DNA of 64,000 nucleotides, taken from positions 43,594,604 to 43,658,603 of the forward strand of contig CM055103.1 of the NCBI GenBank assembly GCA_029204225.1, in the 5' to 3' direction. This document shows, one piece after another, positions 27,825-61,197 of the stretch. How positions within the stretch are numbered: position 1 is the stretch's first letter; each line of letters opens with the position of its first letter. A program made the position numbers and the translations under genes. Source of the stretch: Diphasiastrum complanatum. Taxonomy: Eukaryota; Streptophyta; Lycopodiopsida; Lycopodiales; Lycopodiaceae. Below the pieces are notes generated by a model. It had not been told where the DNA came from, did not search any database, and was given only the letters and a program-made list of their open reading frames with translations.

Positions 27825-28555
27825 TGTGAAGATTATTAAAATATTATCTTCCTATCTCGAGTTTGGGGTCATGTCCATGATGATTTTCACTAAATTTTAT
27901 GTTGTACATATAAGGAGTGTGAATTGGGCACATATCCTTCTAGTGTAGCTCGGAGTTGAGTTAGATAGGTTCAATTATGATGACATGCAGATGTTTAGAT
28001 AGCATGCAAAGTCTTACTTTATGCATGCAAGCCACATGCAATCAGTGCATACAACATGCAAAGTAGTTTCTGTGATCTCCACATGTCTAGGCAATTTTAT
28101 GAGTTTGACATGCAGTACATGCAACATACATGCATGCAGTTACACATGTGGATCTTTGGTAGGTGAATTAGTTCAGTTAAGTGGACTTTTCATGCAACTC
28201 CACTGTAGGAATTCGAGTCTCTCTCATGTAAGAAAAGCTGGGCATGTTTTGCCACATTGTGAGTATTGAGATTTTGGTGTTTTGGACTCATTCTCTCTCT
28301 ATCCGAGTTTTCTATGTATGATTTTCTCTCTCTACCTGAGAGCAGCCTCTTTTTCCCATACTGAACACTTAGAATTATTTCTGACATTCATTTCTCATAG
28401 TGAAGAGTTAGAGTTTTTCATTAGATGTATGCCATTGTGCTCTTGCCTTAGATTTTTCAAGCATACTGTTCTTTGATCAATCTTGTGCAATCACAACACC
28501 TCAGTAAGATCCTGTAGGCTGTGTGGTGAAGTTCACACGTGCTAAAAACTTCACA
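27825..28555 (+). repeat. 5' LTR of the copia element (731 bp)
   Basis: A TATA-like CATATAAGG near 27905 may be the promoter. The LTR contains many ATGCATGC-like and ACATGCA words between 27990 and 28150. Confidence 0.95.
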
Positions 28556-28574
28556 TGGTATCAGAGCTTCATGC
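28556..28574 (+). promoter_or_regulatory. Primer-binding site of the copia element
   Basis: TGGTATCAGAGCTTCATGC directly abuts the LTR; the first 12 bases match the initiator-Met tRNA 3' end. Confidence 0.95.
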
Positions 28575-29320
28575 TTTGAAGAGGTGAGGGTGTATACATC
28601 AGATCATCAATGTTTTTGCTTGCAGGTACTCGGATTTTGGAGAAGGATTCAAACTTGCTGAGAAACAAGCAATTTCTGGAACATAAGTGGATCAAATCCA
28701 GACTGATATGATCCAGCGGATCTTTGTATGGACAGAGAGCTCACACGTGTGAAATCAGCCCTCATTAATGAGTGCTACTTCTTAAGGAATGATCCAAATT
28801 TGATGTTCTATAGCTTGTTGGATAGGTATTGGAGAGTAGAATGTGTTGCTCTTGTTTCTAAATCAATTTGATTTGTTTCTAGAAGAGTTTTAGGCAATCA
28901 GAGAGTTTGAGAGGGTACTCAACTCATGGGATATGCCAAAGTGAGCACACATATGTCTTTTTCACCATTTTCATCAACTTTCACTGTCAATCAAATATAA
29001 TTGGATAGAAGTGAGTGTTCTGAGATCTTAGACTTTTCATTTCACACATATGAGTTGAAAGTAAGTTCCTAGAGAGTTTATCAGTACATTGAAACTCGTG
29101 GGAGAGATAGACTTCTTGCTTGCATGTGCTTTTTCTTTTGTGACTGAAGCAAGATCCAAATTCAAGATAGATTGATTTTTTGTATTGAGAATTTGTTCTC
29201 ACATTTGTTGGTAGATTTCATAGGGTGGATCAACATTTGTGTTAGATCTTAGATTGAGATAGCAAGCAACATCCTTTCAACTCCATTTTTTTATCATTAC
29301 TAGAATTTCTCACCAAGAAG
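28575..29320 (+). other. Untranslated leader of the copia element
   Basis: Internal sequence between the primer site and the gag ATG at 29321. No gene is visible. Confidence 0.7.
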
Positions 29321-30466
29321 ATGTCTTCATCTGGTTCACATTTCTTAGAGCACAGTGAGAGATTAACATCTTCCAATTATACAATGTGGAAGATCAGAAT
29401 GGAATCATTGTTGATTCTACAAGATGTAATGGATATTGTGAGTGGAGATGAAGAAGAACCCGCTGCACCTAATGAAGCTACAACATTCCACAAAAGAACC
29501 AGAATTGCCCTTCATTTTATAAAAATGAATGTTACCAATGAAGTGTTAAGAGAGATCAGTACATGCACCACTGCCAAGGAAGCTTGGAATACTCTAAAAT
29601 AATCTATGAAATTAAAAAACCAAATATTTTTAAGTTATCAGAGAGTAGATGAGAGTGCTTCATCATATGTCATGAGAGTTAAGGATATTCATCAAGAGTT
29701 AGCTGGTATTAGTGATGCTCTTAAGAACATTGAACTTGTTCAAGTAGTCCTAAATGGACTTAGAGATGAGTATGACAATATTGTGCAGACTTATGCTGTC
29801 AGAGAGGATCTTCCATCCTTGGAGACACTGCAAGGTGTTCTCATTGCTGAAGAAAGCAGGGAAGAGAACAAGATGCTGAGGATCAACAGACTTTCATTGA
29901 AAGATGGTGGAGATGACAAAACACTCTTTATTAGAGACAAGTCAAGAGGCAAGGGCAAAGGACAACAACACTTCAAGAAGGACAAAGCCAAAGAAGGTGG
30001 TGAAGATCAGTCCTCACAAGGTGCAACATCCAGTGGCAAGAAGAAGCTGTCAAAGATCAAGTGTTTTTTCTGTGGCAAGAAAGGATATTATGTATCAAAC
30101 TGTTTCAAGAAGAAGAACCAATCTAAGCAAGCTAACCTTACTAATGAGGATGACTGTGAGGGTGTAGAGAGTGAAAGAGATGATTCATTAATGATGTCTA
30201 CTTTTTCATCTTTTCCTTTTAAGAATGAAGAAGTCTGGTGGATAGATAGTGGGGCTAGTTCCCATATGTCTAGTTCTAGGAACTCTTTCACTAATCTCAT
30301 GCCATATCTAGGTGCAAAAAGGTCAATCTATACTACTAATGATGTAGAGTGTAGGATTGAAGGAATAGGTAGCATTCCATTATATGCATCACCATCAAAA
30401 TCTTTTTGCTTACATGATGTACTGTATGTACCTAGATTGACTAAGAATCTCATTAGTGTAGGATAG
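29321..30466 (+). pseudogene. copia gag and protease
   Basis: Starts at ATG 29321 (MSSSGSHFLEHSERLTSSNY). The first frame ends at a TAA near 29600, then continues from 29606 with the usual copia gag segment (ELVQVVLNGLRDEYDNIVQ). A CCHC zinc knuckle (CFFCGKKGYYVSNCF) lies near 30063, and the protease WWIDSGASSHMS near 30236 keeps its catalytic Asp. A TAG ends the frame at 30464. Apart from the two stops the protein reads well. Confidence 0.92.
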
Positions 30467-31500
30467 TTCTTTGATAGTGGATTGGATGTCAAGTTTCAAG
30501 TTGACAAGTGTATAATCTCAAGAGAAAATGAAGTTATTGCTAGAGGATCTAGAATTGGTAAGTTGTACAAACTAGATTCTAGGGAGAGTGCTAACATTTC
30601 AGATTTGCTTATGAGACCAAGGTTCTACAGGAGGATCTGTGGCATAAGAGATTGGGTCATCCCAATTTCAAAGCCATGCAATCTATGGTCAAAGAAGGAA
30701 AAGCTGTTGGTCTACCAAAGACACTATCAAAGGAGCTTCTACCTTGTGAAGCTTGTGTGTTGGCAAAGTCACACAGAAGACCTTTTCCTAGATCAAGTAT
30801 CAAGACAAAGCAACCATTTTAACTTGTACACTCATATGTTCATTTCTCATCAACTAAGAGCAAAGGAGGAGCCAACTGCTTTGCCTCTTTTGTAGATGAT
30901 TATACAAGACATTCTTGGATCTATATGTTGTCTTCAAAAGCCATGGTTTATGATGTTTTTCTTACTTTTAAAGCTTATGTAGAGAAGCAGTTCCCTTTCA
31001 AGTTAAAAGCTTTAAGAAGTGATAGTGGAGGGGAATACACTTCCAATAAGTTTAAAGACTTTTGTGAGAGAGAGGGTATTCAAAGAGAGTTCTCTTGTTC
31101 ATATATTCCTTAACAAAATGGAGTTGCTGAGAGAAAAAATAGAACTTTGTGTGAATGTGCAAAAGCCATTAGGCTGGAAGCTTCTCTACCTAAAGAATTT
31201 TGGGGAGAGGCAGTTGCATGTGCAAACTATTTTTGTAATAGGCTTCCAAATCTTGCAATAGGAGGAAAGACACCATTTGAGGTGTTGTATAAGAAAAAGC
31301 CTAAGGTAGATCATCTTAGGATTTTTGGTTGTGTATGCTTTGTGCATGTGCCTCTAGAAACTAGGAAGAAGGAAGATCTTAGTGCAGTAAAAGGAATTTT
31401 TGTAGGTTATGCATCTACTAAAAAAGCATACAAGATTTATTTTCCCTCTATTGACAAAAATCTTGTTAGTAGAGATGTGATCTTCCATGAAGGTTAGAAA
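30467..31500 (+). pseudogene. copia integrase
   Basis: The zinc-binding part is readable across a frame break (RLGHPNFKA near 30650; PCEACVLAKSH). The catalytic core has FVDDYTRHSWIY, RSDSGGEYTS and AERKNRTLCE, so the D, D and E positions are visible. The C-terminal segment gives LRIFGCVCFVHVP and YKIYFPSIDKN. Stops occur near 31111 and 31495. Confidence 0.9.
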
Positions 31501-32670
31501 TTTAACTTGGATGATGCACATATCAAAGAGATTCATGCAAGATCAATCATCAAGCTTAATGCTGTTCAAGAAGAGGTGAGGCCAAGGCTTGAGGATGAGC
31601 AGATTCAAGCTACCACACCCAAAAGATCTACACGAGCAAGATCTGAGCCAAGGAGGCTCACATATGATGAAGAAGGAAGGCAAGTGGAAGGTGAAACTTC
31701 CTATCATGCACTTTTTATATCAGATGAAGAGCCTAAGGATGTCCAAGAAGCTTTTCAATCCAAGAAGTGGGTTGAAGCAATGACCCAAGAATTTGAAGCC
31801 TTGATGTCAAATAACACATGGGAGCTTGTGGAGCCACCAAACAACATGCATGTGATCGGATGCAAGTGGGTATTCAGAATCAGGTATAATCATGATGGAT
31901 CTATCAATAAGTATAAAGCAAGACTTTGTGCCAAATGCTACTCACAAATTAAAGAACTTGATTATGAAGATACCTTTGCACCAGTTGCAAAGATGGTAAC
32001 AATTCGAATACTCATCTCTCTTGCATGTTTTCACAAATGGAGTATGTTCTTGTTTAATGTTTCTAATGCATTTCTCAATGGTTACCTTGAGGAGGAGATT
32101 TATATGGAGCAGCCTCCAGGTTTTGTGAAGGAAGGTGATGAATCAAAAGTTTGTATGGACTGAAACAGGCACCAAGGTGTTGGTATGCAAGGCTCAATTC
32201 CTATCTCATATCACTCGGAGTTTGTCTAAGTGAATATAACCCTTCTCTGTATTATAAGTTTGTAAATAACTTTGTAGTTATTCTTCTCATCTATGTAAAT
32301 GATATCATTCTTTGTGGAAACAATGAGAAGTTAGTTGAAGAAACTAAGCATGCACTTGGTACTGAGTTTAAGATGCAAGACTTAGGAGTTCTTCACTATA
32401 TTCTAGGCCTTGAAATAGATTTTTGGAAAGGTCATGCATTTAAAAGCCAAAGTAGATATGCACTTTCCATGCTCAAAAAATTTCATATGGAGAACTGTAA
32501 AGGCATAGATACACCTATGGAGCACACTGTAAAAGTTCCTATTAAAGATGATAAAAATTTCTTTGAGGACATCACTCTTTATAGGAGTCTTATTGGCTCA
32601 CTTATTTGGTTAACAGTAACTAGGCCTGATCTAAGCTTTTGTGTTCATAAGCTAAGTCAACATATGTAGG
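31501..32670 (+). pseudogene. copia reverse transcriptase
   Basis: Opens with the linker (RSTRARSEPRRLTYDEEGRQ) and the reverse transcriptase start CKWVFRIRYNHDGS, then DYEDTFAPVAKM and FLNGYLEEEIYMEQPPGF. A frameshift near 32150 leads to MYGLKQAPRCWYARLNSYL. The catalytic box reads LLIYVNDIILCG where active copies read YVDD, so one catalytic Asp is replaced by Asn. Stop at 32667. Confidence 0.93.
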
Positions 32671-33257
32671 ATCCAAAGTTATATCATTGGAAGTTGGCTA
32701 AAAGAGTCTTGAGGTATATATCTTCTACCTTGGACTATGGACTATACTATGAAGGAGAAGCTCTGACTTTGATTGCTTTTTCAGATTCAAATTTTGCAAG
32801 AGACAGGTTGGACAGGAAATCCACAAGTGCTTACACTATATTTCTTGGAGGAAATTTAGTTTCTTGGCTATCAAAAAAGCAAACAACTATATCCTTATCA
32901 TCCTTTGAAGCTGAATACAAATCTCTTACAACCACAACAAAGGAGATTTTATGGATCAAAAGGCTACTTTTGGAACTTAAGTGTTATGCAGATGAAGATT
33001 TACCAATTATCAAGAATGATAACATTTCTGCTCAGGCTCTTGCAAATAATCCAGTCTTTCATGCAAGGAGCAAGCATATTGAAGTGGCTCATCATTTTGT
33101 AAGAGAAAAAATCATTGGAAGAGAGATCTCATTGGAGCATGTTTCATCTTCAGATTGTGTTGCAGATCTTCTCACCAAGTCTCTACTCAAGAATGTCTAT
33201 ATGAAGATGAGGGCAAACCTTGGCCTAATTTCGAAACCTATGTTGATAAGAACATAA
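32671..33257 (+). pseudogene. copia RNase H
   Basis: Frame 32694-33257 with AFSDSNFARDRLDRKSTSAY, SLSSFEAEYKSL and the closing SDCVADLLTKSL typical of copia RNase H. It is separated from reverse transcriptase by a single TAG. Confidence 0.92.
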
Positions 33258-33261
33258 ATTT

Positions 33262-33271
33262 TAAGGAGGAG
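33262..33271 (+). promoter_or_regulatory. Polypurine tract of the copia element
   Basis: TAAGGAGGAG directly precedes the 3' LTR. Confidence 0.85.
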
Positions 33272-34000
33272 TTTGAAGATTATTAAAATATTATCTTCCT
33301 ATCTCGAGTTTGGGGTCATGTTTATGATGATTTCCACTAGATTTTATGTTGTACATATAAGGAGTGTGAATTGAGCACATATTCTTCTAGTGTAACTCGG
33401 ATTTGAGTTAGATTGGTTCAATTATGATGACATGCAGATGTTTAGATAGAATGCAAAGTCTTACTATATGCATGCAAGCCACATGCAATCAGTGCATGCA
33501 ACATGCAAAGTAGTTTCTGTGATCTACACATTTTTAGGCAATTTTATAAGTTGACATGCAGTACATGCAACATACATGCATGCAGTTACACATGTGGATC
33601 TCTGGTAGGTGAATTAGTTCAGTTAATGGACTTTCCATGCAACTCCAACGTAGGAATTCGAGTCTCTCTCATGTAGGGAAAGCTGGGCATGTTTTGCCAC
33701 ATTGTGAATATTGAGATTTTGGTGTTTTGGACTCATTCTCTTTCTATCCGAGTTTTATATGTATGATTTTCTCTCTCTAATCGAGAGCAGCCTCTTTTTC
33801 CCATACTGAATACTTAGAATTATTTCTGACATTCATTTCTCATAGTGAAGAGTTAGATTTTTTAATCAGATGTATGCCATTGTGCTCTTACCTTAGATTT
33901 TTCAAGCATACTGTTCTTTGATCAATCTTGTGCAATCACAACACCTCAATAAGATCCTGTAGGATGTGTAGTGAAGTTCACACGTGCTAAAAACTTCACA
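33272..34000 (+). repeat. 3' LTR of the copia element (729 bp)
   Basis: Aligned end to end with 27825-28555. Its first bases are TTTGAAG, a change from TGTGAAG. Confidence 0.95.
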
Positions 34001-34149
34001 TTAACAAAACATCAGAAGAATAATTTGGCGCGAACAACTAGACAAATTATTAGTCGCGAAGAGCTAGACAGAGCTTGACTGATAATCAGTCGTGAATTAG
34101 TTGCAAAAGGCAAGACTAAATGTTAGTCATCAACAACTAGACTAATAAT

Positions 34150-34440
34150 AATTCGTTAAGGACGTGATCATACAGCTTGTATGTATTATCAGATGAAGTA
34201 TATCCAATTTGGATGGTCTTGAGACCTTGGAAGTCCAATCTCTTCCTTGTGTCTTTTGGGATCTGCGTGTTGGCAACACATCCAAACACTCTTAGGTTCT
34301 TCACAGAAGGCTTAGAGCCTATTCACACCTCGTGGGGTGTCTTTCCTTAGAGGGCCTTGGTCGAACATTTGTTTTGGACGTAAGCTGCAATGGAGACAGC
34401 TTTGGCCTAGAATCTCAGGAAATATTCCATGCAAGCCGAG
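34150..34440 (-). pseudogene. Ty1/copia integrase C-terminal fragment
   Basis: The minus strand reads LRVFGCVANTQIPKDTRKRL then FQGLKTIQIGYTSSDNTYKL, the region after the copia integrase core. It differs from the complete element next door and from the copia at 41-44 kb, so it is a third lineage. Confidence 0.85.
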
Positions 34441-34449
34441 CATTGGAGG

Positions 34450-35110
34450 ATCTAAAGCTCGAAGATTTTTATCAAATTATTCTGGCAAACAATCTAAGGT
34501 TCAATACACGGTTTGGAAAGAAATTATTGCAGCAACTCAAGATTTTGAAGAAGAAGATTCTACTCGTATACACAAAGTAGAAGTTTGGAAAAAGTTAGAC
34601 AACATGGTGAAATACTTGAGAAAAGATAAATTTTCAAATACTGATGTACAAATGATACAGAAAACAACCAATGAATTTGTGGATGCAGTTCAAATGGCAT
34701 AGAGTGTTGATCACATAACATATTATATGGTAAGATTTTGATTTTACACTACGATAGACAAATATGTGCAATTAAACTAAATACTTTTGGTACTTATTTA
34801 GATTATGTTTTTATGACATGCAGCACATATTATGACATCATTCAACATTATTTGCAAGAAATAGTGGAAGTCTTAGCATATGGTCATCGCAAAAAAATGG
34901 AAAAATCTCATTTGCAAACAAGAGCGGCATTTCATAAAAGTACACAACATGGTGGGACTAGCACAAAAAACAGCTATATACTGCAACTTTTCCAATGGTT
35001 TTACAGAAGAATCCAAATTCGTCATAATACAAAATCGACGGATTATAAAAAATTTCAAAAAGCATGCAAATTTATACAAGCCAGTAGGCTATAGACACAA
35101 TAAAATTTTG
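34450..35110 (+). pseudogene. Unidentified gene remnant A
   Basis: A frame to about 34700 (KVQYTVWKEIIAATQDFEEE; WKKLDNMVKYLRKDKF) meets TAG and then a GT donor (34732). After an AG acceptor near 34823 a second frame runs to 35095 (YYDIIQHYLQEIVEVLAYGH). The phase across the junction does not fit without an indel. Basic and helical with no motif I know. It converges with gene B and may belong to the same block. Confidence 0.35.
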
Positions 35111-35142
35111 TACATTAAATAAAAATATCTACAAAGTACAAT

Positions 35143-36650
35143 TCAGCAGTATCTAATCTGCTTCCGATATTTTTTCCAATGAGAGTTGCAACTTAGAATC
35201 ATGCAACAATTTTCTTCTTTAGTATGATCCAATAGCTCATAGTTTTCATGCTTACTCAGATCAACGTAAACAACATACACTGCAAAATGAGATGATCTGA
35301 GCATATCCTAAAATTTTAACTGCAATAGTTTTTTTAAAAAAAATTATTCTATGCACCTTATTGAAATTATGTCTTCCAAGAAAATGAGATAGTGCCTTGA
35401 CTGCCATAATGATAGTTTCACCATGTTGATGAAACTTCGAATGGGCAACACTTATCTCATTATTCTTGAAGGACTTCAGATAGTGCCCTAGTGCATGATC
35501 TCTTGAAAATTCTCCAGTAGAAGATCTCTGCCCTCCTCGACAAATTGCGAAATCATCAAGAAAAATTGTTTCCTGAAATGATAAAAAAACAAAGTAAGCT
35601 CCAGTATATAAACTGACATAACCAATCTACTAGTACTTGATAAGATACAAAAACTTACGCATTCGACTTTGTCTGCACTGATTACTGTCTCTCCATCAAT
35701 ATTATGTCCACCTTTCGATGTCAATATTGTTGGTGAATAGACAGCTGGCTGTGGAAAACCAAGTTGACTTTGGATTCTAAGAAACTCCTCCTCAGAAGGT
35801 AGATCATCTTCTTTGTTGCGCACTTCCTCCATAGCCATTTTCAAGCAATCTTTTCTTGAATAAAACTTATCATTATGTACATCGTCAACACCAGGGAGAA
35901 GATCATCAACATCAAAATCAATTATATCCAAAAATTCATCTAGCTCTTTGCTCAAAATGCAAAGAGTCTCAGCTTCAGTGAAGTCAAAAAGATTCGATAT
36001 ATCCGATATTGTCAAAAAAAAATTATTATCTATATTATAAGTAGGCAAAGTGATCAAAGATTTATCAGAAGGAGAAAGGGTAGTGGGGGTTCTAGGGCCT
36101 ATAAATGTAGTCCTATTTTGAGCAGGATCAAAATCTAAATAATCATCTAAGCTAACACTCGTATCAATAAAAAAAAAATCTATATCTACAATCTTTGGCT
36201 TTTCAGACTTTGTACCACTAGAAGAAGCTACCTCAGAAGTGGAGGGAACAACCTCCCGTAAAAAATATTTAACAAAAGAAAAAAAACAAAAGCAGACTGA
36301 AAATCAACAAATCTACATTTCTTATTATGAATTGGGCACTCATCTACAGACTTGAAATCATTATGTAACTTGGTAAACATTATATCAAGCTTAGCTTTAT
36401 AGATATGCTTGTCGAGTGCCATCAGGTCCTGATAATGAATCATGTCCTTATTCTGAGATATGAATAAGAGAGTACTGAGCAAGGACTTATATATGAGATA
36501 TATCTCAGAAAATGCCTCCACACCAGGGCCCTCAGTTATAGAAGGTAGAATAAAAAGAAAAGGAGAAAAAAGAGATTTGAAATACTCCAACCTATCAGTA
36601 ATACCAAATTCATGAAAAAATAAAAATAAACTAGGTTCAAAATTAGACAT
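35143..36650 (-). CDS. Unidentified three-exon gene B, divergent partner of the H3-Ulp1 gene
   Basis: Predicted exons 36650-35659, 35572-35357 and 35307-35143, all with GT/AG ends and phase-0 joins, giving about 457 residues. Start ATG at 36650-36648 (MSNFEPSLFLFFHEFGITDR), stop TGA at 35145-35143. One base is missing from a T run near 36285; apart from that the frame is open throughout. The N-terminal ~130 residues are hydrophobic/aromatic and include CPIHNKKC, a possible metal-binding pair. The middle is acidic (LDIIDFDVDDLLPGVDD). The end has the phrases GHYLKSFKNNEISVAHSKFH, HFAVYVVYVDLSKHENYELL and SCNSHWKKYRKQ. I recognise no family. Its clean exon structure beside the divergent H3-Ulp1 gene suggests they form a pair. 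Confidence 0.6.
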
Positions 36651-37548
36651 ATCAAACAAAAACAACAGAACTAATGTTTTAAATATCGCTCTAAGGCGCA
36701 AAACCCAGATCAAACAAGCACGTCAAGGCAACGTGCGATCGAGAGAGATATTTCAAGTTGGAGTATCGGATCCGAGTGCAAGAACAAAGAGCAAAAAAGA
36801 AGAAGAGATGTGAAACGCGCTTGAATGCGATATCGGACGATGCAATATTGGATCCAGACGCAAAATAGTCAACGAAGGGTAATGAGAGCAAGCGGCGCGC
36901 TTGAAATCGATATCCGGCAAAGCAGTCATAAATTTGCATGAAAATCCGAGCCGAAGAAGACCTATTTATAAATTTTTTTTTGCACGTGTGGATTAGCGAC
37001 GACGGAACATGTGTCGACTTGTGATTGATCAAAATAAATGCGTTGTACCTAGAATGATTGATCTGACATCTGTCACGTGCGAGAATGACACGCGTCGAGA
37101 GCGCATTCACGCACGTGTCTCAACCCACGTGGCCTAATAATAGGGTCATCATTGTCAGTATGGATAGTCCACATGGACTAATAATCTATCGACACGTGTC
37201 CTTGCCATATTTTTACACGTGTGGAAATTTCGTATATATGAGTCCTCGGAAATTTCATTTTTTTTCACAAAATTTTCGCTTTTAGCTCCCAATATCGCTC
37301 TCAAGTGCGCTCTTTCACCGTTCTAGCTTCTACCCTCTCACAGTGTGCTCGAGTCCGATAGCGCTGGTATTCCAATATCGCTTTCGAGCGCGCATCTCGT
37401 TCCATAAAATAATCTCTATAGATCTTGCGTTCGAAACCAATATTCAGTTCTGGTATCGATCTCTAGCGCCCTTTCATCGCAATTTTTTTTGTTTTCATCC
37501 ACTTTTCTTTTGTTCAAGTTTTTTTTTGTTTATTTTCTTCCTCTGAGT
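36651..37548. promoter_or_regulatory. Bidirectional promoter region between gene B and the H3-Ulp1 gene
   Basis: Six exact CACGTG boxes start at 36983, 37074, 37112, 37126, 37193 and 37216. A TATA-like TATAAATA faces left (36970-36963) and TATATAT faces right (37233-37239), so the core is about 260 bp. CACGTG is the G-box/ABRE core bound by plant bZIP and bHLH factors. Each predicted leader carries copies of a motif like ATATCGNNNTCAAGCGCG in its own sense: at 36916-36894 and 36836-36816 for gene B, and at 37289-37312, 37371-37393 and 37451-37471 for the other gene. Promoter function is inferred. Confidence 0.6.
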
Positions 37549-39656
37549 ATGATGGCTAGGACCAGATCCACTGCCCGTGCCACGACCACTGTACAGCCAT
37601 CCCATTCACGTGTTCCCCCTGGTACTGGCTATAGGCGTGGCAGGAAGTAGGTCTGGTTGAGGAAGGTCATAAAACTCCAGAGATCAACTGAATTGTTGAT
37701 CCCTAGAGCTCCTTTTGGCCGATCTGTACCGAATGTCACTCTGTCACTTGGGCTGAATGTTCGTTTTGTCGTGACAGCCATGCAGGGCTTGCAGGGTGCT
37801 GCAGAAGATTTTTTGACCCAGTTTTTTAAGGATTCGTGTCTTTTGACAGTGCATGGTAAGCGTGTCACCATCATGCCAAAGGATTTCGTCATTTTCAAAA
37901 GGCTTCAAGACAGATATTCTGGTCTGCATGTTGATAGTGCCAGCACCTCCAGAGACCTGCCTCTAAATAGAACCGATTTGCCTACTACCTCTAGGAGGAA
38001 GAGAAAGCAGCTTGTCCCCAAGAAGGCTGGATCTCGAAGCTTAGTTGCTTCCCTTCCTCCTAGAGTTATCCCGGCCAAGAGACCCCATGTCTTCTTGAGC
38101 TCTGAGTCAGATGCTGAAGAATCTGACTCAGATCGAGAATCTTCACCCCTTCCTCCATCTGTTATTCGTCTAGTTCCTCAGCATGTTTCATCACCAAAAG
38201 TGTTGATTACCCAAGAGGAGCTAGACAAAATAACAGAGAAATTTGTAAATATTGTTTCCACTTCTGTTTCTACTCATGTACATAATCTTTTTGTGAGAAT
38301 TCCATATGATCCAGCCCAGGTTTTTTTTTTATTCTGACCATTATAATCAATACGAGGCCTACCTAGTTAACAAAATTGATCTTCTCGGCAACTTTTTTGA
38401 TTTTTTTCTTCCAGATACACGTAGAAGTTTTTAGATTAGGTCCCAAATTTTGTGTCGAGCTAAAAGATAAGACCTCACAAATTTCAGATGCAATAGTAGA
38501 GGCCGGAGTTTCTGCTTTGCTAAATAGTATTAGTTTCGATTCCCATGGTACAGTTTTTGTAGTTAGTCCATTTTTCATGGGAGCAGTAAAGATGAAAGAA
38601 GCCAATTTTGAGAAGGCTGTCTATTTTATTGGGTGCAGTCCTATGGCGAATTTCTATTTGATTCCATATGAAAATAAGTAAGGATTGCTCTTTTGTTTTT
38701 GTTGCTTAAATCTGGATTGTTGCATGTCTCATTGCTTTAATAAGAATGGAATTTTTTCATGAATATAAATTTATCGATATTTGTATCTTGGTTGTTGCAG
38801 TCGGCATTGGAGCCTAAACATTCTTTTTGTAAAGATAAATAAGAAAGGAGTATCAAATTTTTTCTGTGTAAAATTAAACTCAGTTGCAAATACACAGAGA
38901 ATTTGATTCTCTACTTCATGATGTCGTTCGAGAAATACCGACAACGACAACTTCAATTGGAGATATAACCATTAAATCTCTCAAGGTATATTCAATTTAT
39001 CTCTGATATGCATGTATTTCTTTTTTAATTCAAATGTATCGTCATAGCATAAATAAAATTTTTATCATAATATTACTAATTTTCGTTCTATTTATGCAGT
39101 GTGTACAACAAAATGACGCTTTTAGTTGTGCATGGTTCGTCTTGTACAATACGAAGCTATTTTTTGAATGGTATAATCTACAAACGGATGTAGATATTGA
39201 AAAGATAATATTTTATTCCTTTGTAGTTCATTTCATTCTGATTCATATTTTATTACTATCATTGTTTGTAATTTGCTGATTCTTGTGTTTTGTGATGACA
39301 GTTCACTCTTGAGCCGTATACTCCTGATGATATATAGATTTCGGCAAGAGTTGGTCAAAACCTTTGCCCAGTACGGTGTAAGCATTGCACATGCAATCGA
39401 GGGCCGTCAAAAGGAAGCTGCTCCTGCCTTAACAACCTTTCAGATTGTTCAGGATGCAGATCTTATTTTATATGATAAAAAAAGATTAAAAGTCCTTCCT
39501 AATACAGAGGAAGACAATTTTGTAGCAGATATTCCTCTTGCCTTAAAAGACATTGAGGCCCTTCTCGAAACAGAGGAGGGCGAGATTATAGAAGGAGCTG
39601 TTGCCTTATCAATTCTTAATACTGATATAGAAAATATAGAAAAATTGATTGAATAG
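37549..39656 (+). CDS. Histone H3-like domain fused to a Ulp1/C48-type protease domain
   Basis: Predicted exons 37549-38319, 38415-38677, 38801-38985, 39100-39167 and 39301-39656, with GT/AG ends (~547 codons). Exon 1 codes an H3-like tail start (MARTRSTAR) and an H3 fold, residues ~35-123: LRKVIKLQRSTELLI, AAEDFLTQFFKD, HGKRVTIMPKD; loop 1 has the ordinary H3 length, not the longer CENH3 one. A basic then acidic Ser-rich linker follows. Exons 2-4 match C48 proteases: FVVSPFF and FYLIPYEN, His in RHWSL (38805-38807), and QQNDAFSC with the Gln-x5-Cys spacing (Cys 39127-39129). The usual CG after the catalytic Cys is CA, and the Asp box is not clear. Exon 5 is an acidic end. Lesions: TAG at codon 34 (37648-37650), at the position of H3 Thr45, and one extra base in exon 3 near 38875. 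If translated, an H3-bearing deSUMOylase-like protein is inferred. Confidence 0.72.
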
Positions 39657-39998
39657 AGATCTATTTGTAAATAGAGAGACATAAAAAAAAAGATACAATC
39701 ATTTTACTTGTAAACAACCCGTTTATGAGTTTTTTTTATTGATATCACATTAGATTCTTACAATCAGCTTGTGTCCATAGTCTAATACTGGATTGCAATT
39801 TTTCTATAATGATAAAAAGACATGATGATTGGCATGTATTTGTTGATAGTGAATCTCAATGTTCTTCCATAAGTTGGATTGTTTCGCCAATATCTCTACA
39901 TTTGATCTCGAGCTCATGTCTTTTACGTATCTGCATAAAACTAATACAAAGTTAGTTAGAATTAGTAAAGAGTTTGTATTAGAAAGTTTTGATTGAAA
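39657..39998. other. Unassigned spacer
   Basis: 3' flank of the H3-Ulp1 gene, AT-rich, no gene seen. Confidence 0.6.
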
Positions 39999-41245
39999 CT
40001 ATTCATAAAAGATCGAGTGTTTATAGTTACTTACGAGTTTACCATTGCAAATGAATCTGAAGTTCGAAAGTACATCATCTTGTAGGAGCAATAGTTCCCA
40101 CCGGATGTAGTTTAGAATCCAATCTTCTTCCACCTCAACACATGTCAAAACGACATCATTGTATATAATTTCAATATTTTTTCGTTTTGAATGTCCACTG
40201 GCTTCCAAGACTTGATCGAGTGGCACCCATTTACCTTTATTTTTTTTTCCATCTTTGATAATGGAAGCATAAGCTCAACATTTGTTTTTCAATTTGATAA
40301 CGGAAGCACATGGAAGACATTTTAATTCCGCATTCTATTTCTCCATCTGATCTTTTGTCCCAGCCTTCATCCATAAGTTCAGATAATACACTATTTGATA
40401 AATTTTTGCATACAAACATCGTTGGGGTTTTGTGTACATTGACACTTGAAAAGAAATCCACAAATATATTTAAGGAAATAAACCAACTCAATCTGACTGT
40501 TTTTTATTCCGTGCTCATTTTTAATGAATTTTTTACATCATTATATATCTTGCAACGAAATGATTCTGAAACTGTAGCATCTGGTGAAATCCATTCATCA
40601 CTTTCAAAACTAGGTAATGGAATCCAGAATTTTCTTTTGTATCAGGAATGTACATTGATTCATAAAAAAAGATTCCACTATCAGCTAGATCTTTTGCATT
40701 TCTACCTTGATATTGCAATTGTCCAATATCAGTGTGAATAACATCTAACACACCTGCTAAAGATCCACTCGGATCCCATTCATTTATGTTGGATGGATAT
40801 AGATCTGCAAGAGAAAAATGATCAGATTGGCAAGTTTACTATTAGATATTTATGAATGACAAAAATCAAAGTATAAAAAATATCAATACTCACAGTTGCT
40901 TTTTTTGTGATCCTGACTGTTGAATCCTTGCACATTTATCTCTGAATGCATACATACATGTTGAACTAGAATTTCAAAAATAGATTTTCCTCCTGATGAT
41001 ATTCTGAAATCCAAAATTTTGGCCTTCCAATAATATCAAAATGATAGTTTTGACCTTTTCCTTTTTCAAAATGCTCCTCTTGATGATGGATGCATCAAAA
41101 CCCAAGAGTTTTTTGAATATTTTCTTGGCACCCATAATCCATTATCATCTGTCTCGTTGAATAGAAGCACAGAGTCAATTGAGGAGCACGGCTTCCTTGA
41201 TGGCACCATTCGTAATTTGCATTCAAAAATCTGAAACAATGAACT
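39999..41245 (-). pseudogene. Unidentified gene remnant D, converging on the H3-Ulp1 gene
   Basis: Several exon-like stretches on the minus strand: 41240-41065 (RMVPSRKPCSSIDSVLLFNE; GLWVPRKYSKNSW), about 41030-40880 (ISSGGKSIFEILVQHVCMHS), 40804-40560 after a CAG acceptor (YPSNINEWDPSGSLAGVLDV; GQLQYQGRNAKDLADSGIFF; then in another frame PSFESDEWISPDATVSES), and 40275-40020 (KGKWVPLDQVLEASGHSKRK; WILNYIRWELLLLQDDVLSN). Frame changes at A or T runs break it. I recognise no family. The 5' end is cut where copia integrase starts near 41318. Confidence 0.4.
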
Positions 41246-41317
41246 ATGAATCTGAAAATTTGCGTAGACAAAAAGCCATGAATCTGAGAAAAAGTGTTGG
41301 AGAAAATTTGAAACACC

Positions 41318-43345
41318 TCTAAGTTTCTCTAATGGCAGCAGTGTGAAGATCTCATGTCCATTCTCTTCCTTCAATCCTGGAAGTGTGGATTCATCTAACT
41401 TCACATCTCTACTTGACACAACTTTCATCGAGGTTGGGTTGTAGAGCCTGTACACTTGTGATCCATTAGAGTATTCGACCATGACTGTTTGCTCCAAATT
41501 TCCGTCGAGCTTGTTTCTGTTTTTCTTTGGTATGTGCTTGTATGCTGCACATCCAAACACACGCATGTATGATAGATCAGAGGCCTTTTGCTTGTCCACA
41601 TCTCATACAGTGTCTTGTTTTTCACGGCTGTCATCGTTGATCTGTTGCAGGTGTACAGTTGCAACGATTGCCTCAGCCCAAAATTGACTCGCAATTGAGC
41701 ATGTGCCATCATGCATTTGGCTCCTTTGACTAGCGCCCTATTTCTTCTTTATGCGACACCATTGTATTCTTGTGTCTATGCAAGAGTGAACTGATGCTCT
41801 ATTCTTTGTTCTTGGTAGAAGTTTGAGAACTCTTTGCTCTTGTACTCACCTCCATTGTCAGACCTGATGGTCTGTACCTTCTTCAAGGTGTGTCTATCTA
41901 CAAATGCACAAACCTTTTGAAAGAGTCAAACACTTTGGATTTTTCTTTAGATAATAGATCGTTGTCATCTGGCTGTAGTCATCAATGAACGTCAAGGAGT
42001 ACCTTGATCTTGAGAGTGAATCGACTTTCATCGGTCCACAAACATCTGAGTGGACAAGCTCAAGCACTTCCTTAGCTCTTTTTCCTTCATGCACCAATGG
42101 ACTTTGATGCTAGGACATCTTCGAACTTTGAGGTGTGTTCGACATTCGGGTTATTTTTGTCCTTCGGGACATCTTCATCAAGGTTGCAAGAGTTCACCAT
42201 TTCAGACATTGAGATGTTGATGTAGATCCACCTCTTGCTTGAAGCCTATATTATTCATTGATCAAGATCTTTTGAAGATAAATCAAACCTGGCAAAGTTC
42301 TTTGAATGGCAAGACTTTGTACAATGTTAGCATGATCATCAAACAAACCATTAAGAATAACTTGAACAAGCTCTTCTTCCTTAATGCTCTCATCAATGCA
42401 AGATAGCTCATCATTCAAAGCCTTCACTCTCAAAACAAAAATATTTGGACTCTCTCCATTCTTTTGCAAACTTTGAAAAGTTTGTTTTCTTAGAGTCAAC
42501 ACTCTAGAAGTAGACTTGGTTTCATAAAGTTTCTTCAAAGCTTCCCAAGCTTCACTTGATGAAGTACACTTACCATGTGTAGAGCTCTCTTGTCATACCT
42601 CAATTATTCTTGTTGTGTTGCTAGACTCTCCTCCAAACCTACAACAATATCCAAAATATCATTCATCTCAAGAAGTGATTGCATTCTTACTTTTTACAAT
42701 GAATAGTTGCTTGAGGTAAGCCTATCATTTCCTTCCAACATGTATCCACTTGGTGTATCCATGTTGCAATGTCCTGATCCTCTCTTTCAACCAGTTCCAA
42801 TGCACAAAGCACTCTTTTGAAATACCACAAATGTTTTCAAAAAGAAATCACAAAGATATGGAACCTCTCAATTCTCTTCTAGCACTTATATCTAGCAAAT
42901 CAACACATAGAATGTAGAAATATTGATCAACCTATGATATATCCTCAATCTAATGGCTCTTGCCAATTCCTAAGATTGAAGCACACTCTAATGAAGTTCA
43001 GTTATCCAATCAAAAATAGGATTTTGACAAAATCACAAATTATTGATTATTTCAAATTCTACATGCAATTGCCTAAAACTTGATATAGAATCTTGTAGCC
43101 TCAAGTAAGACCTTTCTAATGCATGCAAAATTGGCTATTTCTAGTAAGTATGGTGTGAATCAAAATTCCTCAAGTTCATTGACCTAAATTGAGTTTTGAC
43201 CTACAAAAGATCCAATCTACATATGCAAGAAACTCAATTTTTGAGTAGAAGTCAATCTAGTAGCATGCTCTAGCATTGATATCTTTTCCAAATCCTTGAT
43301 AGGTGCTTGATCCTTTCAAAACTTGCAACACAAGCTCTGATACCA
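41318..43345 (-). pseudogene. Ty1/copia element (gag and integrase) downstream of a shared LTR
   Basis: Reading leftward from the LTR: primer site (43345-43334), leader, gag (about 42760-42250: LTSSNYSL; RVLTLRKQTFQSLQKNGESP; EELVQVILNGLFDDHANIVQ), then a jump to integrase (from about 42097: VLELVHSDVCGPM, YSLTFIDDYSQMT; near 41860 the SDNGGEYKS box; 41599-41320: YMRVFGCAAYKHIPKKNRNK). The zinc knuckle, protease, reverse transcriptase and RNase H are missing. Many stops. Confidence 0.88.
43334..43345 (-). promoter_or_regulatory. Primer-binding site beside the shared copia LTR
   Basis: The minus strand reads TGGTATCAGAGC directly after the LTR end. Confidence 0.93.
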
Positions 43346-58325: not shown

Positions 58326-61197
58326 ATGGCTAGTGATGCTTGTGAATTACAACATACCTCCATGGATGACAATGAAAAAAGGTCATCTTTTACTTGCTCT
58401 CATCATTCCGGATCGTCACAAGGTAAAAAAACATATATGTCTATCGTGAGCCTATTGTCAAGGAGTTGCAAATTCTTTGGAGAGGGATTCGTGTATACGC
58501 GACATTTCACGTCCTATCAGATCTCGAGAATTTGAATTGAAAGGTATTTTCATGTGGACGATGCATGATTATCCTGGATTGGGTGAGTGTAGCGATTTTT
58601 CTACTTTCGGATACCATGCTTGTAATATATGTGGAAGTAATCTCCTTGCACGATATGCAAAACATCTTATGAAAGTCATATATTTTGATCATCGTAAATA
58701 TCTTCCATTCAACCATAGTCTTCGTAGAACTCATTTTTGTCGACTAGGAGACAAAGTGGAGGCACGCCCTCCACCGGAAAGATTAACGAGTAAAGATTGG
58801 CTTGAGAAATGGAACAATGCAATGGAGAATTCCACTTCCATAGAGGGTATGAAAAGGATATCCATATTTTATACACTCCCATATTGGACGACATTAAATT
58901 TAACTCATTTATTGGATCCAATGCACATTTTCAAAAATTTGAGAGACACTTCAATCAGTCAGAAGGTTTGTATCGACGAGTCCTTGATGAACTAAAAGAT
59001 TTTGTTCAAATGCGACACTTGTGGACTAAAGATGGACAAGAGTCAAGGTCAAGATCAATTCATGCACCATGGATTTTGTCGCAGGAAGAGAGTACACATA
59101 TAAAGGCAGTTATTTGACATATGTGATTTCCCACTGGATACGCGGGGTCTATAAGAGGGGCATTTACCATAGACGGCTTATCCAGATTAAAGTCTCATGA
59201 TTGGCACAAGATGATACAAGTATATGTATTTGATGTGTTTAATTAGTGACACATATAATCAAGCTTATTTGAATAAAATGTCATGACAATTATATTTCGG
59301 CCTATTTATGTTGACAACATGTATTTCCGGTGGCATTGAAAGGGTGTTTCATCGAAGATATATACGAAACATTATCTTAACATCATTCAAATGAGCACAT
59401 TTCGCATGTATATGTATATTATTGACGCTTTTTTTTATTTTTGTATGCGGCGAATATGAAGATGGATATCTTCAAAAGACATAAATACAGAAGATATAGG
59501 ACACATGCGTCTCAAAGCTATTGAGATTGTTTGTGCTTTCAAGAAATGCCTTCCTCCATTATTCATGGACATCCAAAATTAACCTATTGGTTCATCTTGT
59601 TGATGAGGTGGAGCTAGCGGGCCCTGTGGGTGCAAGATGGATGTTTTTTTTAGAGCGATTTATGAAAGTCCTAAAAGATTTTATTCACCAAAAAGCGCAT
59701 GTAGAAGGTAGTATGGCGGAAGGTTGGATGGCACAAGAGTCTTTGTTTTACATTACAGAGTACTTGACACAATTGAATCCAGGGGCTCCAAGATTGTGGC
59801 ATAATAGTGATGAAGAGAGCAACAAACAAGAGAGCGTTCCACAAGGAAAAGGAACGTGTGCTAAATTTTTCGAGTATATGAGAGACAAGGTTTGCACATT
59901 CATGCTATATAACTCAGAAGAATTGTCATCTTGGATTGATTTATACAAAAAATCCAAATATCAACGGAATATTGATAGAACGTGATGGCGTCAGTCACAT
60001 AGGGGCCAGGCTTTTCCATCTGAATTGGAGAAGCTCCCAGATCAATGCAACATTTCTTGGCTATATGAAGCCATGAATGATGCTTGTGCGAGTGGAAAAC
60101 AAATATCAAATTCGGAGTCGGATCTTGCACACGGTTGTAGTTGGCATGTTTGTCTCTAAACTCAGACTCATCATTTATTATTTATATAATAATTGCTTTG
60201 GCATTGTAACACATTATTCAAAAAAATGTTATTTGATATATGCATTTTTCAATATGGCAGTATAGGAGGTATACCGCTCTTTGGTCTAGTGGACAACACT
60301 TTCGCATTGAATGCATCGACTAAAAAAGAACGCCATTCGATTGCGGAGTGATGACAAGGTTTCATCAAGCCAATCACAGTAGTGCAAAAGATACCAATTT
60401 GGTTGAAAGTGACCTTGACTATGTTGGAACCATACAAGATATATTGGAAGTTGACTATAAATCCTTCAAGATCTTTTTGTTGGATGTTAAATGGTTTCAA
60501 ATTACATGTCGAGGGCCACATGCAATCGTACGATTGGATTCAAATGGACTACATGCTCTTGTTTCAACAAAGATCCTTTCCTCTTCCAATGAGACATTGG
60601 TCTTACCAATTCATTGTGAACAAGTAACAATTGTTGGTACTTTAAATTACAAATCAACTGTTGAGCACACTAGATTCATTCTCCAACTCACTTGTATTGT
60701 CTATATGTACACATATAGCCCTTTATCCTAATCCAGCGAATATGAGGTGGCTATTTGTCATGCAAAAAAAGACAAGAAAAAAGAATATTTTCCAAAATAT
60801 TGAGCTCGAAGATGCGACGATACACAATCATGATGAAGAAGACGAAAGCGATCACGATATGGAAAATTATGCAAAAGAGAATCTGCATAATGAAGAGGAA
60901 GAAACAATTGATTATCTCGTGGAGCCAAATGAGCATGACGATTGGGATGTCACTGACAATGACGTAAGAGCCGAAAGTCAAATCAATGAAAACATTGATG
61001 ATGATACTTCTAATCTTCCAAAAAGAGTAGACCATCTGTTTGAAATCCATGAAAGAATTAGACTACTAGATGAGTGTGAAAGTGATGCAAACGATCAAGA
61101 AGATGAATTGCAGGCACCTATATCGGAAAATATACGTAGGCTTGAACTATGTTTAGAACTTGACTCAGATGAATGGCGAGATATCAATGATGATTAA
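58326..61197 (+). pseudogene. TNP2 transposase of CACTA
   Basis: Start ATG at 58326. Segments in order: TNP2 core (GIFMWTMHDYPGLGECSDFS, GYHACNICG, RKYLPFNHSLRR near 58540-58740; FYTLPYWTTLNLTHLLDPMH near 58870-58930); LDELKDFVQMRHLWTKDGQE near 58984-59045; DUF4218 (LLVHLVDEVELAGPVGARWM, MKVLKDFIHQKAHVEGSMAE, 59590-59740); DUF4216 (IQDILEVDYKSFKIFLLDVK, 60430-60490); and an acidic end to 61197. Frameshifts or introns separate them at about 58495, 58950, 59120, 59985 and 60730. TNP2 cuts and joins the element ends. Probably inactive. Confidence 0.85.

Follow-up and report, generated by a model that had tools for sequence, protein, structure and literature searches.

The window analysed here (the whole 64,000-nucleotide stretch of contig CM055103.1 from the clubmoss Diphasiastrum complanatum) contains a shortened copy of a TIR DNA transposon, the rightmost plus-strand gene of which encoded a product of ~590 residues, with a charged linker between a histone H3 fold and a C48-type protease domain [Table 1]. 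Alignment of copies resolved this gene, referred to below as H3-C48, into four exons (A to D), the splice sites of which are common to many copies.

Table 1. Features of the H3-C48 element, numbered from the first base of the window.
Feature	Coordinates	Strand	Basis or remark
TIR DNA transposon, decayed and shortened copy	34416-41334	+	Colinear homology with sister copies
Left gene of the element, 3′ remnant	34416-35122	+	Transposase-like by eye only
ORF2, divergent second gene of the element	35488-36722	-	Without Pfam match
Noncoding stretch 5′ of H3-C48, motif array	36733-37393		19-base motif ATATCGCTYTCRAGYGCGC
Exon A of H3-C48 (H3 tail and fold, linker, first half of C48)	37549-38677	+	Copy alignment
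H3-type N-terminal tail, without K9 equivalent	37549-37647	+	ARTR in the window
H3 histone fold	37654-37908	+	PDB (phmmer), Pfam PF00125
Exon B, catalytic-type His in HWSL	38801-38985	+	His 38805-38807; Asn at the Asp position 38877-38879
Exon C, QQNDAFSC	39100-39204	+	Cys 39127-39129
Exon D, C-terminal tail	39302-39656	+	69-70% identical to part of P0005
ORF4, pieces of a possible fourth gene	39999-40835	-	Without Pfam match

The element, its copies and the gene model

In many of the 20 sister copies compared, colinearity with the window begins at 34416 and ends at 41316, and the right terminal 18 bases of the element are kept at 41317-41334, after an internal deletion. The window copy lacks ~2.6 kb at the left end, together with ~0.36 kb immediately before those final 18 bases. 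The termini of the sister copies, CATTAGAG...CTCTAATG, are imperfect inverted repeats, and the single copy of which both ends were read (C577:70113-80032) is 9,920 bp long. Inspection by eye of seven paired ends revealed no TSD reaching 3 bp next to the element, two of the pairs having 2 bp in common; all seven lacked both the 9-bp TSD of MULEs and an 8-bp TSD of the hAT kind, and TIRs are present. When the exon-1 protein was searched against the 1.74-Gb assembly, at least 150 scored matches, haplotigs included, were obtained from 7570 first-look candidates. The 20 sister copies (L009-L028) were taken from the top of this match list, mostly stop-free ones; 12 of them align to the end of exon D, and the other eight end sooner or are without exon D. 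H3-C48 is thus a gene of a high-copy TIR transposon and not a host gene.

No transposase family could be named by Pfam from the six frames of the L017 locus (minus its first 937 bases) and the left gene; in particular, neither a MULE transposase nor a hAT transposase domain was matched in these sequences. A weak BLYB match in the element (E 0.018) fell below the cut-off of that profile and was disregarded. The noncoding DNA that separates the divergent genes harbors five copies of the motif ATATCGCTYTCRAGYGCGC in both orientations, compared to 0.01 matches per window in shuffles, the pattern having been derived from two of the five. In six of the 20 sister copies (L009, L012, L013, L014, L016 and L027), a 330-625-bp part of the segment corresponding to 36606-37230 is duplicated in tandem.

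The first-pass annotation of this DNA had described an H3-like exon spliced in frame to a C48-type protease, and had recorded a TAG at 37648-37650 and one extra base. The TAG is present, the frame is broken within the HWSL exon, and the HWSL and QQNDAFSC motifs lie downstream of the H3 part; the copy is more broken than first read, with the stop at 37648-37650 in exon A, frameshifts in three exons (A, B and D) and loss of the splice donor 3′ of exon C. The window copy is a dead transposon copy. The first of the introns proposed earlier, 38320-38414, proved to be coding: exon A is free of stops, this segment included, in L015, L017 and L027, and the frame of L034 is intact over all four exons (592 codons with the terminator), with three premature stops that are private to that copy and lie outside 38320-38414. 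Searching the genome with exon A of L017 yielded 112 match rows, the query's own included, from the best 110 of 10426 candidates. By eye, 103 of the 112 run in one frame from residue 38 or before to residue 350 or beyond, a count in which stops were read through and both haplotigs and the query's own row were included; eight of the 103, the L017 locus among them, are stop-free. Exon D gave at least 150 rows from 2035 candidates, and 15 loci common to the two match lists, the window and C305 among them, carry exons A and D at the expected distance and strand (by eye). None of the 27 rows analysed further (the window included) is open throughout without a stop. The fusion of an H3 fold and a C48 domain in one gene, and in the same exon, is supported by many copies; to this extent the earlier reading holds at the level of the family, with constraint on both halves as described below.

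The histone and protease halves

The H3-type tail and fold that had been assigned to 37549-38319 are well founded. The open frame 37651-38319 matched PDB H3 chains at 5.7e-16 over query residues 2-86 without gaps (phmmer), and the fold matched Pfam PF00125 at 2.3e-17 (63.8 bits; cut-off 26.4). Alignment to eight histone-containing proteins showed STELLI, PF, RF and KRVTIMPKD, among others, to be invariant. The identification of the H3 fold is certain, chance being excluded. A second, weak profile over the same region, CENP-T_C, was below its cut-off. Structure prediction, which had been suggested as a check, gave a poor AlphaFold model for the H3 part of the window copy (pLDDT 55), with no histone among the 50 fold matches listed, and the model was set aside.

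The tail follows the pattern ARTK-S-TAR-A in most rows. The ARTK-type start claimed for the window is a property of the family (A in 25, R in 22, T in 24 and K in 24 of the 27 rows), ARTR being the sequence of the window copy; at the K4 position the two remaining residues are R (2 rows) and E (1 row). The K9 position is occupied by A in 24 rows, V in two and K in only one of the 27. H113, K115 and T118 are kept in 27 of 27 rows and R116 and D123 in 23 of 27, positions that we take to have a role in H3-H4 pairing. Like core H3 and CENH3, the element protein thus has an H3 fold, an ARTK-type start and the KRVTIMPKD block; unlike them, it has a shorter tail without K9 and ~470 more residues fused to the fold. 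An origin from CENH3 was considered and rejected, all 27 rows scoring higher against H3 than against the one Arabidopsis CENH3 sequence used. Relative to that sequence, the element H3 shows a two-residue gap in loop 1; in L009 and L034 the fold has 50-51% identity to H3, compared to 46-48% to this CENH3. By eye, LLIP, AED and KDF of the element H3 are CENH3-like.

The C48 identity that had been given to the second half stands for the family and less so for the window. Of three sister sequences, two scored above the PF02902 cut-off of 20.7 bits (L017, 22.2 bits; L015, 20.8 bits) and the third, a piece of L021, gave no PF02902 match; the C48 half of the window copy scored 15.4 bits (E 0.017), below the cut-off. 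L034 likewise reached 15.4 bits against PF02902. In alignment A1, five of the six members matched C48 at E below 1, the best at 6.9e-5. No PDB chain was matched by the C48 half. As in Ulp1, SENP and ULP proteases, the element protein displays the HW... and Q-Q-N...C layout. The canonical C48 motifs include an Asp and DCG; unlike these, the element protein has Asn for Asp and SCA for DCG, and its overall similarity is weak. Of the copies readable at each site, 22 of 24 retain the catalytic-type His and 18 of 19 the catalytic-type Cys, while Asn occupies the Asp position in every one of 22, yielding a triad layout of His-Asn-Cys instead of His-Asp-Cys. Because Asn replaces Asp in every readable copy, the C48 domain may be inactive. 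Papain-type proteases, for their part, use Asn.

Constraint on the copies and related sequences

The codon alignment used to look at selection comprised 27 rows (the window and 26 copies) after removal of L002, L005, L018 and L039 as near-duplicates and of L004, L031 and L033 as identical; L017 and L032, which are probably allelic, both stayed in the alignment. Nonsynonymous and synonymous changes (N/S) on internal and terminal branches were compared on one IQ-TREE tree of the 27 rows using parsimony reconstruction, the copies having been picked by search rank, often for a stop-free exon 1. The ratio on terminal branches, 2.48, was close to the neutral expectation of 2.58 calculated from the terminal mutation spectrum. 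Internal branches carried fewer nonsynonymous changes than terminal ones relative to synonymous changes, both in the H3 fold (46/44 versus 240/112, p 0.003) and in the C48 part of exons A-C (99/81 versus 258/99, p 0.0001), and neither signal was seen in two wrong frames. The linker showed no significant constraint (63/33 versus 255/98, p 0.21) and exon D none either (111/23 versus 114/40, p 0.09), the difference there running in the opposite direction, possibly as a result of alignment error after frameshifts. Internal constraint combined with neutral terminal branches indicates that copies decay neutrally once inserted and that both domains were preserved in the lineages that remained mobile. 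We are highly confident of the element anatomy and of the constraint on both halves during spread, taken jointly.

A relative with both domains in one gene had been named among the checks on the fusion. Such relatives exist within the genome (the 103 of 112 rows described above), but none was found in another species by protein searches covering the best ~8000 candidates each, within a length band; annotated protein sets often omit transposon proteins. The full-length protein search returned 21 proteins, 20 with a histone domain plus P0005. A regional protein search gave no matches and is uninformative, since it missed even P0005. The profile of C48 plus tail had P0005 as its sole match among the best ~8000 candidates, at E 0.022 and to exon D. 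P0005 (nr, O6H91_Y440400) is itself a D. complanatum protein, sharing exon D at 69-70% identity; its residues 1-248 are matched at 100% identity by two sites in the window's assembly, on C3 and on C3526. It seems to be a chimera in which a host exon is joined to exon D of the transposon, and may be a mis-annotation or an exonised fragment. A viral origin was also considered, and none of 45 pattern stretches in viral contigs was confirmed. Among the papers listed by searches of an open-access (PMC) library, we found no report of an H3-C48 fusion or of a transposon-encoded histone-protease.

Searched with an H3 protein, the genome returned canonical H3 genes and, in 100 of 131 rows, sequences at 43-55% identity to canonical H3 (by eye). 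Against H3, these sequences have higher scores than the window family, and they look like a second amplified H3-like family. The single locus of these 100 that was read, L052:161-430, is an unfused H3-like sequence that ends after the fold and has WL, LIPRAPF and AVHGKRVTI in common with the element H3. Given these common stretches, a larger, amplified family of H3-like sequences may have contributed to the fusion.

Known systems and possible function

Transposons carry captured genes, and Arabidopsis elements also carry proteins that undo silencing. VANC, a transposon protein, is reported to remove silencing and DNA methylation from its relatives and to bind targets that are noncoding and often tandem repeats (PMC5735166, PMC10398659). 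A C48 domain is present in VANDAL/KIU genes, relatives of VANC (PMC13317346, PMC6117577), and SUMO promotes silent chromatin in yeast as well as in plants and animals (PMC8131101). The clubmoss protein resembles KIU/Kaonashi and VANC of the Arabidopsis VANDAL elements (non-TIR MULEs) in being an accessory protein encoded by a transposon and present in many copies, and resembles KIU members in its C48/Ulp1 domain (PMC13317346, PMC6117577). It is unlike KIU and VANC in having an H3 histone fold as the partner domain, and the element is unlike VANDAL in having TIRs, no recognised MULE transposase and no visible 9-bp TSD. The tandemly duplicated segment upstream of H3-C48 recalls the VANC target repeats. 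A second parallel is offered by fungi: hAT elements with a captured histone H3 are described from Pseudocercospora and Pyrenophora, with hundreds of copies of ~9.5-kb elements in Pseudocercospora (PMC6710886). There too an H3 coding sequence is multiplied by a DNA transposon; the H3 copy lies inside a hAT element with an 8-bp TSD, and the text contains neither "fused" nor "fusion" (PMC6710886). The clubmoss H3, by contrast, is divergent, fused to C48 and shows signs of constraint.

The reading that we prefer, at a probability of about 0.45 for the mechanism as a whole, is that the H3-C48 protein acts as an anti-silencing factor. Through its histone half, the protein would enter nucleosomes at copies of the element, or bind H4 and H4 chaperones there, guided perhaps by the motif array 5′ of its own gene. 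Methylation of K9 silences plant transposons, and a tail without K9 could not take it. The tethered C48 domain would strip SUMO or a similar tag from nearby silencing factors. An H3 that lacks K9 and is joined to a SUMO-type protease would fit such a role by analogy with VANC and KIU, and the signs that selection retained both halves during spread suggest a selfish element editing its own chromatin. A more complete version, in which the element encodes its own chromatin, with K9-less H3 deposited on element DNA and unmethylatable there by the host, the SUMO-type protease disarming silencing complexes at the same nucleosome and the upstream repeated motif marking the copies to be protected, is speculative and, taken entire, unlikely.

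Other explanations were weighed against the same data. H3-C48 might be a transposition cofactor that aids the transposase, through nucleosome tethering for target choice or through SUMO removal, without countering silencing. Its location in an element together with other genes, and the constraint on it, are what such a cofactor would lead one to expect; no link to a transposase can be shown, however, since no transposase family could be named, and the loss of K9 is left unexplained, such that we consider this possibility somewhat unlikely. Alternatively, host H3 and C48 fragments may have been captured and multiplied passively, as histone H3 was in the fungal hAT elements (PMC6710886). Capture of host genes is documented for plant and fungal elements (PMC13317346, PMC6710886), and none of the rows analysed is open throughout. 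The preservation of both domains in the spreading lineages argues against a passive passenger, and the frame-specific constraint on internal branches, the Asn (22/22) and Cys (18/19) found in readable copies and the splice sites common to many copies all make this explanation quite unlikely.

The invariant Asn could also denote a dead protease serving as a binding module, one that holds SUMO or a relative of it without cutting and is delivered by the histone half. A mere binding module would have no need to keep His and Cys, yet both are kept in nearly all readable copies (22/24 and 18/19), and Asn is not foreign to proteases of the papain type; we judge this distinctly improbable. As to the proposal of the first-pass annotation, a nucleosomal SUMO protease encoded by an ordinary gene of the host, the occurrence of both domains in one frame is in its favor, but the many copies with common element ends and the disabled state of the window copy leave it next to no credence, and at the window locus itself a host gene is ruled out by copy number and common element ends; a domesticated single copy might exist elsewhere. 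A functional nucleosomal deSUMOylase at this locus is not supported either: the copy is decayed, and the catalytic Asp is replaced in every readable copy.

Returning to the anti-silencing reading, a constrained histone-protease fusion on a mobile element would demonstrate the use of a modified nucleosome against silencing. The protein offers testable predictions through its K9-less H3, its catalytic Cys and Asn and the motif array. The finding at the level of the family is surprising and testable, and the observation, once corrected, is real; it also illustrates that a transposon gene can pass as a new host gene if a single window is read alone.

The copy studied here lies among other mobile elements. 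A nearly complete copia LTR element, its family named by eye, occupies 27827-34001, with LTRs (27827-28556 and 33274-34001) that are 94.8% identical. Copia-like fragments adjoin the H3-C48 element copy on both sides, at 34255-34289 and 41335-41602; the ORF at 41066-41602 contains an SH3_retrovirus domain, and a 35-base repeat of that ORF is found at 34255. Farther along the window, at 58450-58995, lies an open frame that by eye resembles remnants of CACTA-type transposases.
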